Positions 976 through 31,608 of a stretch of DNA of 37,347 nucleotides are shown piece by piece. The position numbers and the translations under genes were made by a program. This stretch comes from a virus: positions 1 through 37,347 of IMG/VR virus record IMGVR_UViG_3300031565_000155, one strand, 5' to 3'. The notes beneath the pieces were generated by a model that saw nothing but the letters and a program-made list of their open reading frames with translations, searched no databases and had not been told where the DNA came from. Numbering within the stretch: the stretch's first letter is position 1; each line of letters starts with the position of its first letter.

Positions 976-2013
976 TTAGAAGGTGAGGTTGTCGAGTGCT
1001 TCGGTCGGGGACGGCGCAGGCGCCTGCTCCGGTTCGGGGTCAGTGTCAGTGTCGGTCACAACGACGGTGACCTCTTGGACGTCCTTGCGCTTGCGCTTCG
1101 GCTTGCTTGCGACGCGAGCCGTCACGCCATGTTCGAGGTTCAGCGCTTCCAGCTTCGCGGACGCGAGTGCGATCGACAGCGCTTCGGCTTTGTTTCCGAG
1201 AATCGCACGGACGCTTTCCACCCGCAGTTCGATCTCGGCAAGGTCGGAGCGCTTGCGCTGGACGGTTCCCTCTCGGGTGTTACTCGCGCCTGCGGTCAGC
1301 TTGCCGATCTGAGCGGTGACCTCTTTGATCTCCGCATCGATCGACGAGGCGATTGCTCGCGCCGCCTGCGCCTTGCTTTCGGCGGTGTCATAGATCGGAA
1401 GCGCGGTCAGTTCGCACGACCCGATCCCCTCCAGCACGTTCGCGAAGTTGCGAATGGTCGCAGCCCCCACGGTCGGAACCCAGTACAGGCTCCCGCGCTT
1501 GAGTCGCGTTCCGCCGACGAACTCCATTGCCCGTGTCACCATGCGGTGGACGTCGCGATAGTCGGCGTGGTCGGTGTGGAACGCGAAACGATTCTCGACC
1601 TGCTTGCACAGTGCGTCGGTCGTTGTGTCCCCCTTGGCCGTGTACTCGATCTTGAGGTCGTCGTGGTCGTCCACGTAGAGAACCGCGCAGGTGACCTTCT
1701 TGGCGTCGTGCCCCTCCCCCTCTGAGCGGAACACATGGAACGCACGGTCGCGTTTCTTCGGAGTCTGCAAGGAGTAGCCCGACGGCGCATAACTTTCGAC
1801 GTCGCGGCGTGCGCGGCCGAGTGCACCCTGCGAACCGATCTCTTCCGCGATCAGGTTCTCGGGGAGTCCCGCGTCCGTGAGCGCTTGGCGAATCGCCAGG
1901 CGGCTGTATGCGTTGCTCTCCACTTCGGAGATCTCGGGCCACACAATGTCCCCGATGTGTTGACCTGCGGTGTCTTCAAGCAGGCGTGTGATTTCGTTCG
2001 CTGTGGTTTTCAT
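976..2013 (-). CDS. MoxR/VWA-module associated protein, 345 aa
   Basis: Third gene of an apparent cassette with the VWA protein and MoxR ATPase just upstream. ATG 2013 is preferred over a TTG six codons earlier, because the GAAAGGA Shine-Dalgarno lies 8-10 bases before the ATG and would otherwise be coding. The N-terminal half (about 1-200) appears globular and contains aromatic- and Asp-rich stretches. Residues 210-290 are Ala/Glu/Lys-rich and predicted helical or coiled coil. The C-terminus is a basic KPKRKRK patch followed by an acidic Thr/Asp/Pro tail. No enzyme motif is visible. Phage MoxR-VWA pairs are often followed by such a protein, so it may be the substrate adaptor or target, but no function is proven. 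Confidence 0.7.
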   Translation of the reverse strand: MKTTANEITRLLEDTAGQHIGDIVWPEISEVESNAYSRLAIRQALTDAGLPENLIAEEIGSQGALGRARRDVESYAPSGYSLQTPKKRDRAFHVFRSEGEGHDAKKVTCAVLYVDDHDDLKIEYTAKGDTTTDALCKQVENRFAFHTDHADYRDVHRMVTRAMEFVGGTRLKRGSLYWVPTVGAATIRNFANVLEGIGSCELTALPIYDTAESKAQAARAIASSIDAEIKEVTAQIGKLTAGASNTREGTVQRKRSDLAEIELRVESVRAILGNKAEALSIALASAKLEALNLEHGVTARVASKPKRKRKDVQEVTVVVTDTDTDPEPEQAPAPSPTEALDNLTF

Positions 2014-2034
2014 TGTCTTGGTTCCTTTCAAAGT

Positions 2035-3522
2035 TCAGATTGCAAAGAGGGTGGCGAATGGTTCCGCGCTTGTGTTTTCAATGTCGTCGTAGGTGACTTC
2101 GGTGGCGGACGCGAAGTCCACCGCGTCGTAACTGTCCGTGGTGTTGTTGTACTGACCGGGTGCGGACGTTCCGATGCCGACGAAGTGAAGTTCGACGCCC
2201 GCCTTCTTGAAGTCTGCAACCTGTTGCTTCCAGTCCACTTGGTCCTCACCGTCAGTGAGCAGGACGACGTCGGCCTTCTTGAACGCCTTCTCTTCCGAGA
2301 TGAAGTTGCGAGCGTGTTCAATGGCTGTCTGGATATTCGTTCCACCGTCTGCACGGCGAGCGATGATTGCGGCGAGCGCTTTCGGGTCGGGCTTGCCAGG
2401 CTTCGCGAACTTCGTCGTGGCCTGAACGATGTGGTCGAACTCGATCACGGCGAACACACGGCGTTGCTTGCGTGCGATCTCCATCATCGAAAGCATCGCC
2501 GCGATCGCGTACTCGTCGGAGTCACCGTCCATGCTGCCCGACTTGTCGATGCAGAAAACGATCGGCCCCTTTTCGTTCACCGCGACCTTGACGTCGAACT
2601 GCAACGCCGCGTGGTCCATCACGTTCGCCCACAACATCGGACCCATGACGGGATCGCCCATCTTCACTCGCTCACTCGGGAGCAACTGCATCAGGTCACC
2701 GCCGCGAGTAATGTCCTCGATGGCGCCAGGCCCGTGCTTCTTTTCCTTCTGCGCTTTGCGTGCGGACTCGCGCATGCGTCCCGCCATCTTCGCGATGCGC
2801 GCCATCTTGTCGCCCTTGACGCGGGACAACGACCGCTTGACGTCGCGGACGTCCTTGACGCTCAGGTCGTTTCCGGCTCCGACCTTCGCAACCATGGCGG
2901 TTGCTTCGTCGCAGGCTTCCTGATCCTTCGTCGCGCCCGCTATCGCGGCCTTCATGCGCTTGACCGCTCCCCGTTCCCTCGCCAGCTTGAACTCGCCAGG
3001 CTGGTTGCCCGAACCCGTGCCGCTGCCAGGTTCCCCGTCGTCGCCAGGCTCGCCGTCTTCCGACTCACCCTCTCCGCCCTGTCCAGGCTCGCCACGCTGC
3101 GGGTTGTCAGAGCCCGCAGGCGGCTCCGGCTTGTCTTCGTTCTGCTGTGCAACGTCGGGCGGCGTGACGGCGAAGGCCATCGCGTCGGCAACGCGACCAG
3201 CAAGGCGAGCGGCGTAAATGTCATCGCCCTCGGTTCCCTTGATTGCTTCGTTCCACTCGGGCAGGTCGCGGACCTTCTTCAACAGGTCGTCGGCCCAGCC
3301 CTTGTGCTCGCTCGGGACTTCCACTTCGGAGTTCCCGATACCGTACGCGTCCGCGAACAGTTCGCGAACCATCGTTCCCCACACGGCGCTGTCGGGGTGC
3401 TTTGCGTTTGCTGCCTTGAGCGTGTGCTCTGCGGTCGCGTTCTCTTTGTACAGGAGTCGCGTCCACGGGTTCGTTCCAACTGCGAGGTCGTGGTCGAGTG
3501 CTTTACGTTTTGCGTTTGCCAT
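2035..3522 (-). CDS. VWA-domain protein, ViaA/CobT-like partner of MoxR ATPase
   Basis: 495 aa, ATG 3522 with a GAAAGGA Shine-Dalgarno. Residues 1-120 are helical. Residues 125-178 are a Gly/Glu/Asp/Pro-rich linker like that of CobT. Residues 185-265 are Lys/Arg-rich helices. A von Willebrand factor A domain occupies about 318-485 with a complete MIDAS metal site: D326-x-S328-x-S330 (DKSGSM), T395 (GGTN) and D424 (LLTDGED). Proteins of this build work with MoxR/RavA/CobS AAA+ ATPases, the VWA domain presenting a metal-dependent binding surface. The ATPase gene lies 24 bp upstream, so the two probably form one complex. Real cobalt chelation is unlikely, since no cobalamin genes are present. 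Confidence 0.85.
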   Translation of the reverse strand: MANAKRKALDHDLAVGTNPWTRLLYKENATAEHTLKAANAKHPDSAVWGTMVRELFADAYGIGNSEVEVPSEHKGWADDLLKKVRDLPEWNEAIKGTEGDDIYAARLAGRVADAMAFAVTPPDVAQQNEDKPEPPAGSDNPQRGEPGQGGEGESEDGEPGDDGEPGSGTGSGNQPGEFKLARERGAVKRMKAAIAGATKDQEACDEATAMVAKVGAGNDLSVKDVRDVKRSLSRVKGDKMARIAKMAGRMRESARKAQKEKKHGPGAIEDITRGGDLMQLLPSERVKMGDPVMGPMLWANVMDHAALQFDVKVAVNEKGPIVFCIDKSGSMDGDSDEYAIAAMLSMMEIARKQRRVFAVIEFDHIVQATTKFAKPGKPDPKALAAIIARRADGGTNIQTAIEHARNFISEEKAFKKADVVLLTDGEDQVDWKQQVADFKKAGVELHFVGIGTSAPGQYNNTTDSYDAVDFASATEVTYDDIENTSAEPFATLFAI

Positions 3523-3546
3523 TGTGTTTTCCTTTCAGTCGTTCAG

Positions 3547-4731
3547 TTACAGGGTTTCGGCGTCGAACTTCGATTCATGCGCGGATTTGATCGTGGCCTT
3601 CATCGCCTCGAACTCAGTGGCCATCGCTTCCAGCACCGCGTCGATTCGCTTCGCGGCTTTTCCGCTGGTTGCTTCGCGGCGGCTGCGGATCTTTTCCCCA
3701 GCGTTCTTGAACACGGTCGGTGCGCGGAACATTTCGTCCGAGCGTCCCGTGTCGATCAACCGCTGTGCTTCGGTGCGTGCGGCGTTGTGGTACTCGCGGC
3801 ACTCCGCGACGAGCGGGTTGATCGCGGTCTTGGCGGCCGTCTCAATCTTTTCAACGTGGTCGCGTTCGTTCCACATGACGGGAACGAGTGCGGTGAAATG
3901 TTCCTCATCGATTTCGTCGTCCCCCGCGAGGTACGCCTTCGCTTGCAGCACCCGCACGGCCTTCACCCAACGTCGGTCGCCGTGTTCGATGCCGTCGCGT
4001 TCCAACTGCTCGCGGAACGCAAGCAACGAGGACGCGACGTCCTTGCTGAGTTCAATCGTCGCGACGTCTTCCAGCATCTGGTCCCACTCGGACTCACTGA
4101 TACGAATCGCAACGTCCCCGACTGCGCCCTTGCGACGGTCACCCGACGCGGCTGCTCGGCTGAACAGTTCGCGTCGGTTCTGCTTGGACTGGATCGGCTT
4201 GACCCAGTGTCGAAGCATGTAGCGGTCCCACATCGCGCCCAAGCTTTCGTCTTCGGGCATTTCGTTCGATGCGCTCACCACCATCTTGAGAGGAATCTTA
4301 TTGATCACGCCGCCATTCTCGAAGGTGCCCTCACACATGACCGGCAACAGGCAGTTGACGGCTGCGACACACTTCCAGATCTCGTCGGCGAAAACCATCT
4401 TGGCGCGGGGCAGTCGGTTCGCCGTGTTGCGTTCGTACTTGTCCTTCTGCATCGCGGTGTAGGAGTAGGGTCCCAAGAACTGCTCCGGCGTCGTGAACTT
4501 GTTGAACACAATTTCGAAATAGTCTTCGCCCTTGACGTCGAGGATGGTGGCCAGCTTGCGGAGCAGTTCCGACTTGCCGGTCCCCGCAGGTCCGAGCAGG
4601 CACGCATGCTCACCGGAGCAGAGTGCGAGCAGCAGGACGTCGATCTCCACGTCGCGTTCGATGAACGCTGCGGACAGTTCGGTGCGGGCGGTCTGAAACT
4701 TCGTGCGGATGTTGTTGTTGATGGTTGCCAT
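3547..4731 (-). CDS. MoxR-family AAA+ ATPase, RavA-like
   Basis: 394 aa from ATG 4731, which has a GGAG Shine-Dalgarno and the AAGACAATG context; an in-frame upstream start at 4797 lacks support. Walker A is GPAGTGKS (47-54) and Walker B is VFADE (113-117), followed by IWK. The stretch TTPEQFLGPYS (80-90), the LPRAKMVFADEIWK region, and a sensor-1 segment ending SASNEMPEDESL closely follow the Escherichia coli RavA pattern. The C-terminal ~180 residues are helical, as in RavA-type lid domains. MoxR ATPases remodel protein complexes together with VWA partners, and one lies directly downstream. Both are expected to be expressed early, close to the putative promoter region. Confidence 0.88.
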   Translation of the reverse strand: MATINNNIRTKFQTARTELSAAFIERDVEIDVLLLALCSGEHACLLGPAGTGKSELLRKLATILDVKGEDYFEIVFNKFTTPEQFLGPYSYTAMQKDKYERNTANRLPRAKMVFADEIWKCVAAVNCLLPVMCEGTFENGGVINKIPLKMVVSASNEMPEDESLGAMWDRYMLRHWVKPIQSKQNRRELFSRAAASGDRRKGAVGDVAIRISESEWDQMLEDVATIELSKDVASSLLAFREQLERDGIEHGDRRWVKAVRVLQAKAYLAGDDEIDEEHFTALVPVMWNERDHVEKIETAAKTAINPLVAECREYHNAARTEAQRLIDTGRSDEMFRAPTVFKNAGEKIRSRREATSGKAAKRIDAVLEAMATEFEAMKATIKSAHESKFDAETL

Positions 4732-4777
4732 TGTCTTGTTCTCCAATTGAATCAAAAGTTTTCGGTTGTAAAGGTTT

Positions 4778-5311
4778 TCAGTTGAACGAAAGTGCATCGA
4801 GGTCGGTGAGTTGCTTCTTCAGGTCTGCAAGTTGCTTCGCTTGCGCGTCGGCAACCTGCTCGGGTGTGTACGCCGCACGTTGCGGTGTGTTGCGTTCGTA
4901 TACGTTGCAACCCTCGGAGTGCCCCTCCTCTTCGGAGAGTGAGCCGCAATCGCAGTTCTCATCGACCGGCGGCGCATAGTGCTCGCCGTCGGGCACTGTG
5001 GCGGTCGCTCGGTAGTACCAGGACTTGCCACCGCCGCGCTTGAATCGCTCGACGCGTCCCAACTTCAAGCTGCGAGCCAGTGCGCGGTCAACAACCCGCG
5101 ACAGGTTCGCGGCTCGCGTCCGATAGCAGCCCATCATCTTGGCAACGTCGTCGGCGCTGAACAGTCGCGACCACTCGCCGCTGCTAATGTGTGACGTGAT
5201 TCGCTTCGTGGTCACCCCCATCGGGAACTGATCCACTGTCGCGTACACGCTGGCTCCGAGTACATCGAAGCAGGCTTGCTGTTTCGGTATGTCGAACAGT
5301 TCGGCCTTCAT
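4778..5311 (-). CDS. Putative winged-helix DNA-binding protein with Cys motif
   Basis: 177 aa; ATG 5311 overlaps the TGA of the 63-aa gene as ATGA. Residues 15-102 look like a winged-helix domain: helical segments with an R-T-R-A-A-N-L-S-R recognition-like helix (about 64-72), then a beta-hairpin rich in Lys/Arg/Gly ending in KSWYYRA. A short Cys cluster (C120, C122, C135) within an acidic loop could bind a metal. A C-terminal coiled coil (about 150-172) suggests dimerisation. As the second gene after the candidate control region it may be an early transcriptional regulator. No family could be named with confidence. Confidence 0.65.
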   Translation of the reverse strand: MKAELFDIPKQQACFDVLGASVYATVDQFPMGVTTKRITSHISSGEWSRLFSADDVAKMMGCYRTRAANLSRVVDRALARSLKLGRVERFKRGGGKSWYYRATATVPDGEHYAPPVDENCDCGSLSEEEGHSEGCNVYERNTPQRAAYTPEQVADAQAKQLADLKKQLTDLDALSFN

Positions 5312-27953: not shown

Positions 27954-28297
27954 TGGTTGAAGTATAGCGGGCGCGAAGGGTCGCCTGTCAAGGTACCGTG
28001 AGTGCGGACGACCATCTGCGACTGCCACTCACGTAGCCGCTCGCGATCCCAATCCTTGAAGTGACCCGATAAATCATGGAACTCCGTGTGGCACTGGTCG
28101 CACAGCGGCATCGTCAGGTCGTCCCCGTTCTTGGTTCCCTTCCCCTTGCCCATGCCTGTCGCGTGGTGAGCACGGTTCGGCACTTCGTCAGTCGGGAAAC
28201 GCCCGCAGCTACAGCAGGCAAGTCTGCGGACTCGTTGGAGGATTCGCTTGTCGCGGACGGGCTTGGTTTTCTGTTTCACGTGGAACAAGGTGATCAC
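27950..28297 (-). CDS. HNH endonuclease
   Basis: 115 aa. Start chosen at GTG 28297, which overlaps the preceding TGA as GTGA; a longer frame to 28531 runs through the previous gene and is low quality. Zinc ligands C28/C31 and C66/C69 frame the nuclease motif N-R-A-H-H (41-45) ... GDD (58-60) ... PLCDQCHTEFH (64-74). This is the aHH...PLC..CH..H pattern of HNH enzymes found next to terminases, which help cos-type packaging cleavage. The coding sequence includes a parS site at codons for FHVKQ near the start. Confidence 0.8.
   Translation of the reverse strand: MITLFHVKQKTKPVRDKRILQRVRRLACCSCGRFPTDEVPNRAHHATGMGKGKGTKNGDDLTMPLCDQCHTEFHDLSGHFKDWDRERLREWQSQMVVRTHGTLTGDPSRPLYFNQ
28272..28287. promoter_or_regulatory. 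Canonical parS (ParB-binding) site
   Basis: TGTTTCACGTGGAACA on the plus strand; read on the minus strand it is TGTTCCACGTGAAACA, an exact match to the bacterial parS consensus TGTTNCACGTGAAACA. It is a near-perfect palindrome (one mismatched pair) inside the HNH gene. The consensus match is visible directly. Whether the phage ParB-like protein or the host's chromosomal ParB binds it is unknown. I saw no second copy by eye. Confidence 0.75.
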
Positions 28298-28899
28298 AGG
28301 ATTTGGTAGAACTGGTTGCCACGTTTGCCATTCGCCAGTTCGGTGCCGGGGATCACCAGCACTCGCCATCGTCCTGCCGCTACGGCCCGCTGTGCGCGCC
28401 TGACGTCGGCGTCCAAGCGAGTAGCGCCCCAATGGTCGGCGCGGCCTCTGGAGGGATCCTTGACCCGTCCTGCAGCCCATTCGTCCGTGCGCTCGACGAC
28501 AGCCCGCCAGCGAGGCAAGTGAGCAGACCACGACACATGGCTCGGCCAGCCACTCGGGGGCGACCCGTCCGTTGTGAGCGCTCGCACCCAGAGTTGGCGC
28601 CGTGACGGCGTGCGGTTACCCAATCCAGCGCAATACGACCGCACAGCATCGGTGAAACCAATCGCGGGAAACTTTGATTGCAGTGCGCGCCAGCGTCGAG
28701 CCAGCACCCAAGCCATCACGTCGTGGTCGGTTGTCGCGATCCATCCTGCCTCTGCTACCTGTGCGCGAGACAACCACAGCCGCGCCCTCGGCGTCCACTG
28801 TTCAGCGGGTATCGGCAATGCGTGGGTGTCAGTCGCGAACAGCGCAAGCAGGAGCACAGCCAGAGCAACGCGCCGCATTGTATCGGGTGGGGTGGTCAC
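28294..28899 (-). CDS. Secreted or membrane-anchored protein, possible cell-wall hydrolase
   Basis: 201 aa from GTG 28899 (GTGA overlap with the glycosyltransferase stop); ATG 28878 is an alternative start. Residues 8-27 form a signal peptide or signal anchor (MRRVALAVLLLALFATDTHA). The mature part opens with helices containing VAEAGW (a Glu that could be catalytic) and later DHDVMAWVLARRW, a layout reminiscent of lysozyme/transglycosylase or SleB-like hydrolases. It has many Arg and Trp. The hydrolase idea is tentative. It neighbours HNH and terminase genes, not the endolysin. Confidence 0.55.
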   Translation of the reverse strand: MTTPPDTMRRVALAVLLLALFATDTHALPIPAEQWTPRARLWLSRAQVAEAGWIATTDHDVMAWVLARRWRALQSKFPAIGFTDAVRSYCAGLGNRTPSRRQLWVRALTTDGSPPSGWPSHVSWSAHLPRWRAVVERTDEWAAGRVKDPSRGRADHWGATRLDADVRRAQRAVAAGRWRVLVIPGTELANGKRGNQFYQIL

Positions 28900-29768
28900 T
28901 CGACCTCCACGATCCGCATGCCGTACTCGTCGGCGCCGTCAGCGATCTCGACGTCGGGGCGACGCACCAGTTTGTTCTTGCGGAACGGGCGATAGTCCAC
29001 GTGGTGGTGCCAGCGCTTGAACTTCCACACAAGTCGCGACACATCGGGGTGCATTGCCACCTGCATGCGTGACTTCGGCAGAGTTCCCTCCTTGTCGTAG
29101 AACTCTCCGGTGTTCCCGCCCTTCAAGGTGGAAGTCCGCACCTTGTTTTGCAGGAACGCATTGAACTGGATGGTGCACCAGCCGTCCTTCAACATTCGAA
29201 GCGACAGGTCGGTGTCCTCGTTGTAGCGCCCACGCCAACGATAGCTCAGGTCGTTGCGGATCAGATTGCAGGAGTAAATGCGGGTGTTCAGGATGAACGG
29301 CGGGAGTTTCTGTTTGCGCTTTGCGAACATCAGGTAGTTCGGTCCGGCCATGCTGACGTTGCGATAGCGGAGCACAAAGTCCTCCATGCAACGGAACGCC
29401 GTGCCGTCACTCACCTGCACACGCAGGTTGCGGTTCAATCGCCAGAAACCTTGAATGTTGTCGTCCATCACCCAATGCCACGCGTGACCGCCAGCGACGG
29501 AGTGGTCCCACGCAAAGTTGCGAGCCGCGCCGGGACCCTTGCTCTTGGTGCTGCCGAGTTTGTCGAACGTGTCGTAGCGGTCCTGATACGATTGCGGCAG
29601 CACCAGCACCGTTCCGTACGCTGGATCACATGCGGCCGCGTATGCGTCGCGTTCGGGTTGCTCGACGATCACATGGTACGGGACGCGCATTGACTCCAGC
29701 GCGGACAGCGTCAGCCGAACGTCGGCGCGTCCCTTGCTCGGGATGTACAGCGGGAACCTAGGATTCAT
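28896..29768 (-). CDS. TET-associated-type glycosyltransferase (TAGT)
   Basis: 290 aa, ATG 29768 overlapping the ParB-like gene by 11 bp. Motifs in order: LYIPSKGR (7-14), a VEQPERDAY segment (35-43), GAARN (80-84), HWVMDDNIQGFWR (98-110) with the nucleotide-sugar-binding DDN, YNEDTDLSLRMLKDGW (182-197), and KGGNTGEFY (216-224). These match the TAGT group of GT-A-like glycosyltransferases described with TET/JBP oxygenases in phages, which add sugars to hydroxymethylated bases. No TET/JBP-like protein was found here, so the acceptor is unknown: another modified base, or a virion protein. Confidence 0.8.
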   Translation of the reverse strand: MNPRFPLYIPSKGRADVRLTLSALESMRVPYHVIVEQPERDAYAAACDPAYGTVLVLPQSYQDRYDTFDKLGSTKSKGPGAARNFAWDHSVAGGHAWHWVMDDNIQGFWRLNRNLRVQVSDGTAFRCMEDFVLRYRNVSMAGPNYLMFAKRKQKLPPFILNTRIYSCNLIRNDLSYRWRGRYNEDTDLSLRMLKDGWCTIQFNAFLQNKVRTSTLKGGNTGEFYDKEGTLPKSRMQVAMHPDVSRLVWKFKRWHHHVDYRPFRKNKLVRRPDVEIADGADEYGMRIVEVE

Positions 29769-30459
29769 CGTCGCTTGCGACGCGCAGGTGGGCGACAGGC
29801 TCGACCTCTGCCTGTGGGTGCCACACGTACTTGGTGTGCTCCGTGAGTTGCTGTCCGATTATTTTCGCGAACTCCGCGACGTCGTCGTCGGTTTTAAAAT
29901 GCACCTTCACGGTGCGGTACGCCATCCGATCTTCCTGTTCGAACTCGGGCATGCCCTTGTTCCACTCTTCCTGGGGATCGATCACCGTATCCTCGAAGGC
30001 GCCTGCAATGCGGTCCAGGTCGGTGCCCGTCCAGCCTGCAATCTCCACGTCCTCGGGGTCGAGTTGCGCCAGCACCGCGTTCAGCAACGGCGCGTCCCAT
30101 ACTGCCATTTCGTTCAGGCGATTGTCGGCCAGCGCCAGAGCATGGGCCTCGTCCTCGCTCCACGCGCCAAAGCGAACAGGCACCTCGTTAGTCTCCACGC
30201 TCCTGACAGCGTCCGTGTGCCAGCCGATTCGTTCGTCGGGTGTCAGTGACTCCCACAAAGTTCGCAGGTACTCGACGGCCTTCAGGCGCGTGTGACCAGC
30301 GACCACTTCGCCGTGCTCGCGAGCGAGGATCACCGACCCCCAGCCGAACCTGCGGATTGATTCTGCGACTTTGCGCACAGGCTCGCCATCGTTCTGACGC
30401 GGGTTCCCTGCCCACGGCGTCAGTCCATCGGCTGAAACCCATTCAGCGGCGGCACTCAT
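29758..30459 (-). CDS. ParB/Srx-domain protein
   Basis: 233 aa, ATG 30459. N-terminal ParB-like domain: NPR (19-21), then VVAGHTRLKA (52-61) with the G-x-x-R-x-x-A box that binds CTP/NTP in ParB-Srx proteins, and LADNRLNE (110-117). The C-terminal part (about 165-225) begins with NKGMPEFEQED and has a beta-rich segment ending in YVWHPQAE. This layout matches the ParB domains linked to DNA methylases and base-modification operons rather than classical partition ParB, which would carry a central helix-turn-helix and dimerisation domain. It sits between methyltransferase and glycosyltransferase genes, 1.5 kb from a parS site. Confidence 0.75.
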   Translation of the reverse strand: MSAAAEWVSADGLTPWAGNPRQNDGEPVRKVAESIRRFGWGSVILAREHGEVVAGHTRLKAVEYLRTLWESLTPDERIGWHTDAVRSVETNEVPVRFGAWSEDEAHALALADNRLNEMAVWDAPLLNAVLAQLDPEDVEIAGWTGTDLDRIAGAFEDTVIDPQEEWNKGMPEFEQEDRMAYRTVKVHFKTDDDVAEFAKIIGQQLTEHTKYVWHPQAEVEPVAHLRVASDDES

Positions 30460-30472
30460 GGAACGGAGTCAA

Positions 30473-30853
30473 TCACGGAGCGTCGTCGGTGGCAAGGCTG
30501 TTGGGGTCCCACACTTCGATCCGCACGGCGTGTTCGCGCACCGCTCCGCGTTCTTGTGCGCCGAGCCATGTGATCCCGTCGCGTCCCGTGTCAGCGCAAC
30601 CGAGTGCGTCCGCTACGCCGTCGCGCACATGCTTGAGTGCATCCATCTCGGTCCCTTCATCGACGCGACGAGGCGCGATGCGGGTGAGCAGAACGCAAAG
30701 CGGGCGAACAGTCGCGAACCCCCGCAGCGGTCGAGTGCAAACCAGCTTTGTCGCGCCGCGTTGCGCCTTCGCAATCTTATGCAGCACTCGCCAGTGACCG
30801 CGTGCGTTGCTGGTCGTGCGAGTCTGCATCGGCATGGTGACCACTACTCTCAT
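30473..30853 (-). CDS. RusA-like Holliday junction resolvase
   Basis: 126 aa; ATG 30853 overlaps the methyltransferase TGA as ATGA. The N-terminus (MRVVVTMPMQTRTTSNARGH) and 'AKAQRGATK' follow the RusA opening strand-loop pattern, and residues 54-90 hold VLLTRIAPRRVD and ALKHVRDGVADALGCADTG, equivalent to the RusA 'D.DN...k...DaL.....DD' region with several Asp/Glu as metal ligands (D65, D71, D78, D82). RusA enzymes cut four-way junctions made during recombination-dependent replication. The Asn of the usual DxDN motif is not clearly present, so activity should be treated as probable. Confidence 0.7.
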   Translation of the reverse strand: MRVVVTMPMQTRTTSNARGHWRVLHKIAKAQRGATKLVCTRPLRGFATVRPLCVLLTRIAPRRVDEGTEMDALKHVRDGVADALGCADTGRDGITWLGAQERGAVREHAVRIEVWDPNSLATDDAP

Positions 30854-31608
30854 GGTCGCTTCCAGTATGCAGGACGCTGGTTCCACATGCGGGTTTTCTG
30901 TTGCGCGTACCCCGCCGTCCGCAGTACCGCATTGAATCGACGCGACACCGACCGACCGGGCAGCACCTCGTCCCCGACTTCGTACTCGGGGAAGTGGCCG
31001 ATCGCTGGCGAGGTGAAGGTGTTCGCGATCAACAGCGCTCGCGGTTTCATCCGCGCAAGGACGCGCCGCAAGTGACCGACGGGGACGGGCAGGTGCTCGA
31101 AGAACTCTGACGCGAACACCAAGTCCACCGGAGCCCGTATCTTGGACGCCTCGACAACCTTGAACCCGTACCGCTCCCCCAGCGAATCCGCTATGCGGCG
31201 TTGCTTGACGTCCTCGATGTTGGTCCCGAAAACCTCTGCATCGGGGAACAGTTGCGCGAGCGCGGCGGTGGTGAGCCCGAACCCGCAACCGAGATCGACC
31301 ACGCTCCGCACTCTGCCGAGATCTTCCGTGATGCTGCCGCCAGCTTCCATCGATCGATCGCCGCGAATCGCACGCAAGTACGGACGCGAGTACGTGGTCC
31401 AGCAGTCCCACAGTTCGGCCATGTACACGTCCTCGTCATACACGCTCCAGTCGGGCTCGCCGCTATCGAGCGACGCATACCAACGCCGCTCCAGTGCCTT
31501 GAGTTCTGACCCCGCGTCGGTCAGCGAGCAGTCCACCCCCAAGCTGGCGCACTCCGCGACCATCATCGCGAGGACGTCGCCGGACTTTTCGTCGAGCAGA
31601 CTATTCAT
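30850..31608 (-). CDS. SAM-dependent class I methyltransferase
   Basis: 252 aa, ATG 31608. Motif I VVDLGCGFGL (103-112) with the acidic residue of motif II near FGTN (127-130), and a motif IV region FASEFFEHLP (165-174) typical of small-molecule or sugar-type methyltransferases ('S..vleHl') rather than the N/DPPY or PC motifs of DNA base methylases. The C-terminal part contains ALLIANTFTS, another strand of the fold. Since it shares an operon with a glycosyltransferase and a ParB-like protein, it may methylate a sugar added to DNA or another attached group. The substrate is inferred, not seen. Confidence 0.75.
   Translation of the reverse strand: MNSLLDEKSGDVLAMMVAECASLGVDCSLTDAGSELKALERRWYASLDSGEPDWSVYDEDVYMAELWDCWTTYSRPYLRAIRGDRSMEAGGSITEDLGRVRSVVDLGCGFGLTTAALAQLFPDAEVFGTNIEDVKQRRIADSLGERYGFKVVEASKIRAPVDLVFASEFFEHLPVPVGHLRRVLARMKPRALLIANTFTSPAIGHFPEYEVGDEVLPGRSVSRRFNAVLRTAGYAQQKTRMWNQRPAYWKRP

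Follow-up and report, generated by a model that had tools for sequence, protein, structure and literature searches.

A TAGT glycosyltransferase, the tail of a ParB-type protein and a methyltransferase: a probable phage cassette for adding sugar to DNA

What does a TAGT glycosyltransferase act on when no TET/JBP oxygenase is found with it? The question is raised by the IMG/VR phage record IMGVR_UViG_3300031565_000155, a possibly incomplete record whose 37,347 bases are called the window here. On its minus strand, within 28896-31608, the window carries genes for a TAGT, a ParB-type protein and an S-adenosylmethionine (SAM) methyltransferase, as the original prediction had described, although an open reading frame (ORF) of 126 amino acids at 30473-30853 went unmentioned there. 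We propose, at a probability of roughly 60%, that the ParB-type N-terminal module (ParB-N) with its C-terminal tail, the TAGT and the methyltransferase form a phage DNA-modification cassette that adds sugar to DNA. The cassette probably decorates viral DNA, a target suggested by the company that its parts keep.

The TAGT gene (28896-29768, minus strand) encodes 290 amino acids that match PF20691 over the whole profile (positions 1-205 of 205; E 4.2e-42; 144.8 bits with a cut-off of 27.5), and also phrog_842. Its motifs had been read as intact, and D102 and D103 (DD) together with E184 and D185 (ED) are indeed invariant across 52 aligned TAGTs. Mean column identity is 67% (26 rows), and a C-terminal extension at about residues 252-290 is conserved within the clade of the window enzyme. 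No sequence homologue was found in the PDB. The AlphaFold2 model has a GT-A fold (mean predicted local distance difference test (pLDDT) score 92.8, predicted template modelling (pTM) score 0.91), and the 50 structural neighbours shown for it have Z scores of 12.7-14.7 at root mean square deviations of 3.1-4.9.

How widespread is this enzyme? A scan of IMG/VR with the window TAGT found at least 597 stretches with relatives, the best 80 of which were kept as loci L001-L080, and a scan of one genome per species gave 49 loci. A phage collection contains 24 matching records, several of them duplicate deposits of one genome, and in 22 the match spans at least 80% of the query. The matches include the Aeromonas phages Aeh1, 65 and phiAS5, while the two partial ones belong to Nonlabens phage P12024L, whose own TAGT recovered only 3 loci as a query. 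The plasmids searched gave no match. Given the IMG/VR count, such sugar modification of phage DNA may be common.

Which gene is the constant partner of TAGT? The original prediction had pointed to ParB. The ParB protein is linked, but it is the small tail at its C-terminus, rather than ParB-N, that accompanies TAGT most constantly, and this had been missed. One protein cluster recurs in 73 of the 80 TAGT loci and is defined by a C-terminal region of 60-75 amino acids, with the pattern W...GMPEF...VHF...FA.II.Q.LT..TKYVWHP; in the window it occupies 29776-29964 of the ParB gene (29758-30459, minus strand). It is the only neighbour cluster found in most TAGT loci, and the next clusters look terminase-like by eye. 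A hidden Markov model (HMM) of the tail, trained on 72 rows from L001-L080 with the window row excluded, was applied to 141 TAGT-bearing sequences. The tail is adjacent to TAGT (less than 200 nucleotides away) in 100 of them, part of the same ORF in 17 and 206-1645 nucleotides away in 9. Among the 15 sequences with none, 8 are cut off less than 200 nucleotides upstream, 3 are of the TET type and 4 are real or unclear absences (L044, L126, L141 and L142), which puts the tail in 126 of 130 untruncated non-TET loci. Beyond the loci used in training, it was found in 51 of 57 (8 named phages and 49 genome loci), with 3 of the other 6 truncated. When a stand-alone tail was searched by tblastn against 50,697 phage records, every one of the 17 matches at E ≤ 0.1 was a TAGT carrier.

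The tail occurs in three forms: as the end of a ParB-N protein, as a separate small ORF (82, 76 and 71 amino acids in L026, L061 and L080) or fused to TAGT. A tail-like stretch lies N-terminal to TAGT in the same protein in phages phiAS5, POP12, PTm1, 1.076.O, 1.124.O and 65 (blastp E 1e-8 to 0.003), and in L120 a single ORF joins ParB-N, tail and TAGT. In an AlphaFold model of this fusion (mean pLDDT 89.0, pTM 0.74), Foldseek relates the ParB-N part to ParB/Noc structures (E 4e-6) and the TAGT part to GT-A enzymes. The model has strands at 213-216, the end of the tail, and at 489-492, the C-terminus of TAGT; the second of these is missing from the model of TAGT alone. As a sign of docking between tail and TAGT, these predicted strands are only a hint.

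Some TAGT loci hold further enzymes. A second PF20691 glycosyltransferase lies between ParB and the main TAGT at L055:1824-2630, a similar one stands beside the main TAGT at L060:3720-4481, and a TAGT-like one, recognised by alignment only, lies upstream of TAGT at L123:3749-5473; these perhaps add a second sugar. On a 156-kb contig, a glycosyltransferase of another family (weak PF00534) is inserted between tail and TAGT (L124:4902-5987). Radical-SAM genes directly adjoin TAGT at L053:1801-2733 (Pfam match) and L044:356-2712 (by eye), and their products may act in the TAGT pathway. In a Prevotellaceae bin, the TAGT stretch L127:6001-6855 contains one in-frame stop, perhaps a recoded stop or a broken gene; recoded stops occur in crAss-like phages. 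Similar Bacteroidota loci are L128, L132 and L138. In Microbacterium phage Hermeonysus (L144:3938-6113), ParB stands in tandem with a gene annotated as a glycosyltransferase, which no Pfam profile matches at E ≤ 0.1, and with a UDP-glucose dehydrogenase-like gene (PF00984); the set may point to a related module that uses a uronic-acid donor.

What might the ParB part contribute? The window ParB-type protein (233 amino acids) has its ParB-N module at about 30438-30010 and matches phrog_620 (E 1e-30) and phrog_723. It shows no ParB_N match in Pfam at E ≤ 1, and a comparison with PDB sequences gave one chance-level row at E ≤ 1. When eight window proteins were submitted to PADLOC, the sole match was between the ParB region and a type II methyltransferase model. 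No ParA was found among the 39 window ORFs, a part of the total, that were scanned with PHROGs.

A tblastn search with the window module found 313 phage records, and many of the 60 shown are named DNA methylases. In Psychrobacter phage Y8A, ParB adjoins the terminase and is followed by a gene (OQ059336.1, 7125-7778) that matches the Mom family, PF25680 (E 2e-55). Across 80 IMG/VR relatives of this gene, ParB-N adjoins the Mom-family gene, upstream and on the same strand, in 73; it lies at another distance in 4, is absent from 2 and one locus is truncated. None of these 80 loci has the window's tail. TAGT is present in one (L220), in the order ParB-TAGT-ParB-Mom, where the two ParB-N modules are near-identical and their tails unrelated. 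Likewise, the window's tail is found in none of the 69 loci of a second type of TAGT, that of Lactobacillus phage phi jlb1; 65 of these carry another tail, 60 together with ParB-N and 5 as the tail only. Tails go with their enzymes, and ParB-N is shared between them. ParBc genes are also described beside the DNA carboxymethyltransferase CmoX in PMC12783734, which calls their role there unknown. The common denominator of the neighbours of ParB-N is DNA modification.

Could the acceptor be a protein instead? The ParB-type adaptor would then bind a virion or host protein, which the cassette would glycosylate and perhaps methylate. The GT-A neighbours of the TAGT model do include protein GalNAc-transferases and a collagen galactosyltransferase, and the strong conservation of TAGT fits one universal acceptor of any kind. 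A related domain occurs in human GREB1, which reportedly modifies a protein. However, fold likeness is uninformative about the acceptor, and the tail, with terminase-like clusters next in rank, is the sole neighbour cluster in most loci. Moreover, ParB-N is common to Mom-family and DNA-methyltransferase genes, which favours DNA over protein as the target. We consider a protein target improbable, and DNA is preferred in what follows.

Is the methyltransferase (30850-31608, minus strand) part of the same system? It belongs to the generic class-I superfamily, with Methyltransf_12 (E 1.6e-9), 23, 25 and 11 all above cut-off. The motif SEFFEHL had been read correctly, and no DNA-methyltransferase family appears at E ≤ 1; weak protein and RNA families lie below cut-off. 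At E ≤ 0.01 it has 16 relatives in the PDB, among them a D-glucose O-methyltransferase (E 1e-3) and other small-molecule enzymes; none is named as a DNA methyltransferase. The linkage to TAGT first looked accidental, since among the first 80 TAGT loci this methyltransferase is found only in L042 and L048. A search with the window protein alone found no relative; a profile built from its alignment with those two gave 255, the best 80 of which were kept. One of these is L048, leaving 79 new loci.

A TAGT ORF is present in 73 of these 79 loci, always on the same strand, at a median gap of 9 nucleotides (largest 1,748); it follows the methyltransferase in 37 and precedes it in 36. As a baseline, the single TAGT among the 80 Mom loci was counted in flanks smaller than those of the methyltransferase set. 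TAGT and methyltransferase form one ORF in L048, L384, L385 and L390, L384 and L385 looking like near-copies. How the pairing has been inherited was followed on a TAGT tree of 98 rows, 39 of them with the methyltransferase. Rows were kept if they had a methyltransferase or flanks of at least 1.8 kb on each side; 62 were dropped as cut short or of a distant type, and near-copies were removed. An earlier tree of 138 rows (21 label changes, at least 10 forced) was replaced because some of its methyltransferase-less rows were cut short. On the 98-row tree, the presence of the methyltransferase changes 17 times, at least 14 of them forced by supported branches, and the label is more clustered than in any of 500 shuffles. 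Thus, the methyltransferase is passed on for stretches and repeatedly gained or lost. Since many TAGT loci lack this methyltransferase, its most likely place is after TAGT, with the TAGT product as substrate. Capping of the sugar by methylation, which had been suggested at the outset, fits best with an enzyme that keeps company with TAGT while TAGT often does without it.

Do these genes work together, or are they neighbours by chance? If unlinked, ParB would serve partition or gene control, TAGT would act on cell-surface sugars and the methyltransferase would be unrelated. In favour of this reading, gene order in phages is mosaic, ParB matches turn up in many of them (the 313 records above), and the paper on Y8A names its ParB a partition protein. 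Chance is nevertheless hard to reconcile with the one-frame fusions of ParB-N, tail and TAGT in L120 and of TAGT and methyltransferase in L048, L384, L385 and L390, or with the linkage of 126/130 for tail and TAGT and 73/79 for methyltransferase and TAGT. This reading is close to refuted by the fusions, and the functional cassette of the original prediction is upheld by the same fusions and linkage. A partition role of ParB is rejected by the fusions, and O-antigen conversion by the fusions and the ParB link.

How, then, is the acceptor base prepared? The window record contains no PF12851 (TET/JBP), PF00303 (thymidylate synthase/hydroxymethylase) or PF00145 (C5-methyltransferase) match by profile search. 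In the window search for PF12851 no control gave a signal; the same search detects the TET of P12024L (E 2.8e-29). PF00303 detects T6 gp42, and both the PF00303 and PF00145 searches of the window had positive controls. No oxygenase was found by profile either, but the wording of the original prediction, "anywhere in the genome", holds only for the 37,347-base record. Its proposed searches, for a TET/JBP homologue in the record and for TAGT genes lacking TET, have both been run. The latter covered 51 longer IMG/VR records chosen for length, 25 from the first 80 TAGT loci and 26 from the 79 methyltransferase loci. PF12851 was above cut-off in 0/25 and 0/26, PF00303 was found in 0/25 and 0/26, and PF00145 in 4 of the 25. 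No TET (PF12851) was found in 8 named phage records with a TAGT of the window's clade. The TET pathway is rejected by these profile searches with their control. TAGT without TET is the usual state in the window's clade where it was examined; T6 itself has a dCMP hydroxymethylase and no PF12851, so its absence is not the oddity that it had been taken for.

An ordinary TAGT pathway might still operate. A hydroxymethylated or hydroxylated pyrimidine would come from an unrecognised enzyme, or from a part of the genome outside the record, and TAGT would glucosylate it as in T6. The TAGT of T2 and T6 is described as acting on glucosylated hydroxymethylcytosine, radical-SAM genes adjoin TAGT in L053 and L044, and PF00303 enzymes are present in 6 of the 8 named phages. 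The one in phiAS5 is an ordinary thymidylate synthase that shares 56% identity with part of T6 td. At the position of an aspartate in T6 gp42, the five main copies examined retain asparagine. The divergent PF00303 enzymes of phages 65 and Kuja might nevertheless be hydroxymethylases, and PTm1 has a second, weak copy. Hence a hydroxymethyl(uracil) handle is possible in some large phages. By contrast, neither PF00303 nor PF12851 above cut-off was found in any of the 51 IMG/VR records, although PF00303 detects the T6 control, and the sole gene common to most loci, the tail, is small and by eye without a metal-ligand pattern. For the window, we consider the ordinary pathway unlikely.

Several observations nonetheless weigh against a sugar-adding DNA cassette that needs no such handle. 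Besides the PF00303 enzymes of the named phages and the protein glycosyltransferases among the structural neighbours of TAGT, PF12851 matches L412 below threshold (15.3 bits; the cut-off is 34.9), and the IMG/VR records, which may be fragments, include one of just 14.8 kb among the 51. A detectable tail is missing from 4 of the 130 loci, and the fused tails of L116, L122 and L123 are weak calls (i-E 0.002-0.007). Tail-only loci exist, so ParB-N is dispensable. The methyltransferase linkage of 73 in 79 leaves 6 loci without TAGT and comes from a profile whose rows L042 and L048 were chosen as TAGT-adjacent, from the best 80 of 255 relatives, and from a set with many near-copies. Finally, in the Y8A paper ORF16 is named a partition ParB, and MOM is ORF69 (39,393-40,157) rather than the neighbouring ORF17; the Mom label for ORF17 therefore rests on the Pfam family name, and Y8A perhaps carries two Mom-like genes.

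How might the DNA-modification cassette work? ParB-N would be an adaptor that engages phage DNA, and the tail would dock TAGT, as fusions and the sharing of the module suggest. TAGT, from its association with DNA modifiers, would move a sugar from a nucleotide-sugar donor to a base of phage DNA that presumably received no prior treatment from TET or a dCMP/dUMP hydroxymethylase. Where present, the methyltransferase may then cap the attached sugar by methylation, in keeping with its family and its one-way linkage, and phage DNA modified in this way would be protected from host nucleases. A more specific and more doubtful version, which we put forward as tentative, is that TAGTs of this clade glycosylate a canonical base directly, with no prior hydroxyl handle: the ParB-N adaptor delivers, the tail selects TAGT, Mom or methyltransferase, and the TAGT-linked methyltransferase afterwards caps the sugar. 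If so, ParB-N would serve phages as a general, plug-in subunit that delivers DNA-modifying enzymes, and with a canonical acceptor DNA would be glycosylated without the need for an oxidised base. An exchangeable ParB-N/tail would also suggest what ParB genes do next to DNA modifiers and make such loci easy to find. A partial literature search found no publication on the tail, on the sharing of ParB-N between Mom and TAGT or on the TAGT-linked methyltransferase.

The remaining genes of the run say less about function. Neighbours on the minus strand overlap or abut at 31605/31608, 30850/30853, 29758/29768 and 28896/28899, with one gap of 13 nucleotides between the 126-amino-acid ORF and ParB, an arrangement that suggests one transcription unit. 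The 126-amino-acid ORF, on the same strand between methyltransferase and ParB, gave no match in Pfam (E ≤ 1) or PHROG (E ≤ 0.01), and tblastn found no relative of it across the 80 TAGT loci. By eye it may be a RusA-type resolvase, and it is probably a bystander. Downstream, an ORF of 201 amino acids (28294-28899, minus strand) overlaps the TAGT stop and has a signal-peptide-like start by eye; it too gave no Pfam (E ≤ 1) or PHROG (E ≤ 0.01) match. Elsewhere in the window, at 976-4797 on the minus strand, a MoxR-type AAA ATPase (PF20030 bpMoxR, E 3e-40), a vWA-domain protein and a DUF6744 protein stand consecutively, a module of the MoxR-vWA type in a phage.

How does the cassette compare with known systems? 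According to PMC13390438 and PMC13216743, the TAGT of T2 and T6, assigned to PF20691 in the latter paper, attaches a second glucose to cytosine that is already glucosylated. The DD and ED motifs of T6 ggt align with those of the window's clade, but in a six-sequence comparison ggt has no blastp match to the window TAGT at E ≤ 10. Next to it stand a dCMP hydroxymethylase and uvsX, no adjoining gene is annotated as a ParB or a methyltransferase, and the 50 kb of T6 examined hold no match to the tail. Nonlabens phage P12024L has TET, TAGT and a methyltransferase in tandem and shares the pairing of the last two with the window. It differs in its PF12851 TET, in a TAGT only 22% identical to that of the window, in having no tail domain and in a methyltransferase without a meaningful blastp match to the window's.

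Two further systems share the ParB side. In the ParB-Mom modules of Y8A and its relatives, ParB-N likewise adjoins the modifying gene from upstream, whereas enzyme and tail differ. The CmoX loci of PMC12783734 also place ParBc genes near a phage DNA modifier, with a different chemistry; the words "glycosyltransferase" and "Mom" have no match in the main text of that paper. Aeh1 ORF087c and phiAS5 ORF0218, annotated as "beta-glucosyl-HMC-alpha-glucosyltransferase", belong to the same clade as the window TAGT (56-58% identity over 99% of the query). Unlike the window, phiAS5 has no methyltransferase of the window family in a stretch of 8.9 kb, where the neighbours are annotated as hypothetical, and it has a thymidylate synthase. 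A member of the clade is already in print, since a table in PMC8056088, citing Iyer 2013, lists Aeh1ORF087c as presumably DNA-modifying with the base unknown. In both Aeh1 and phiAS5, the tail domain stands in front of TAGT, the same partner that TAGT has in the window.

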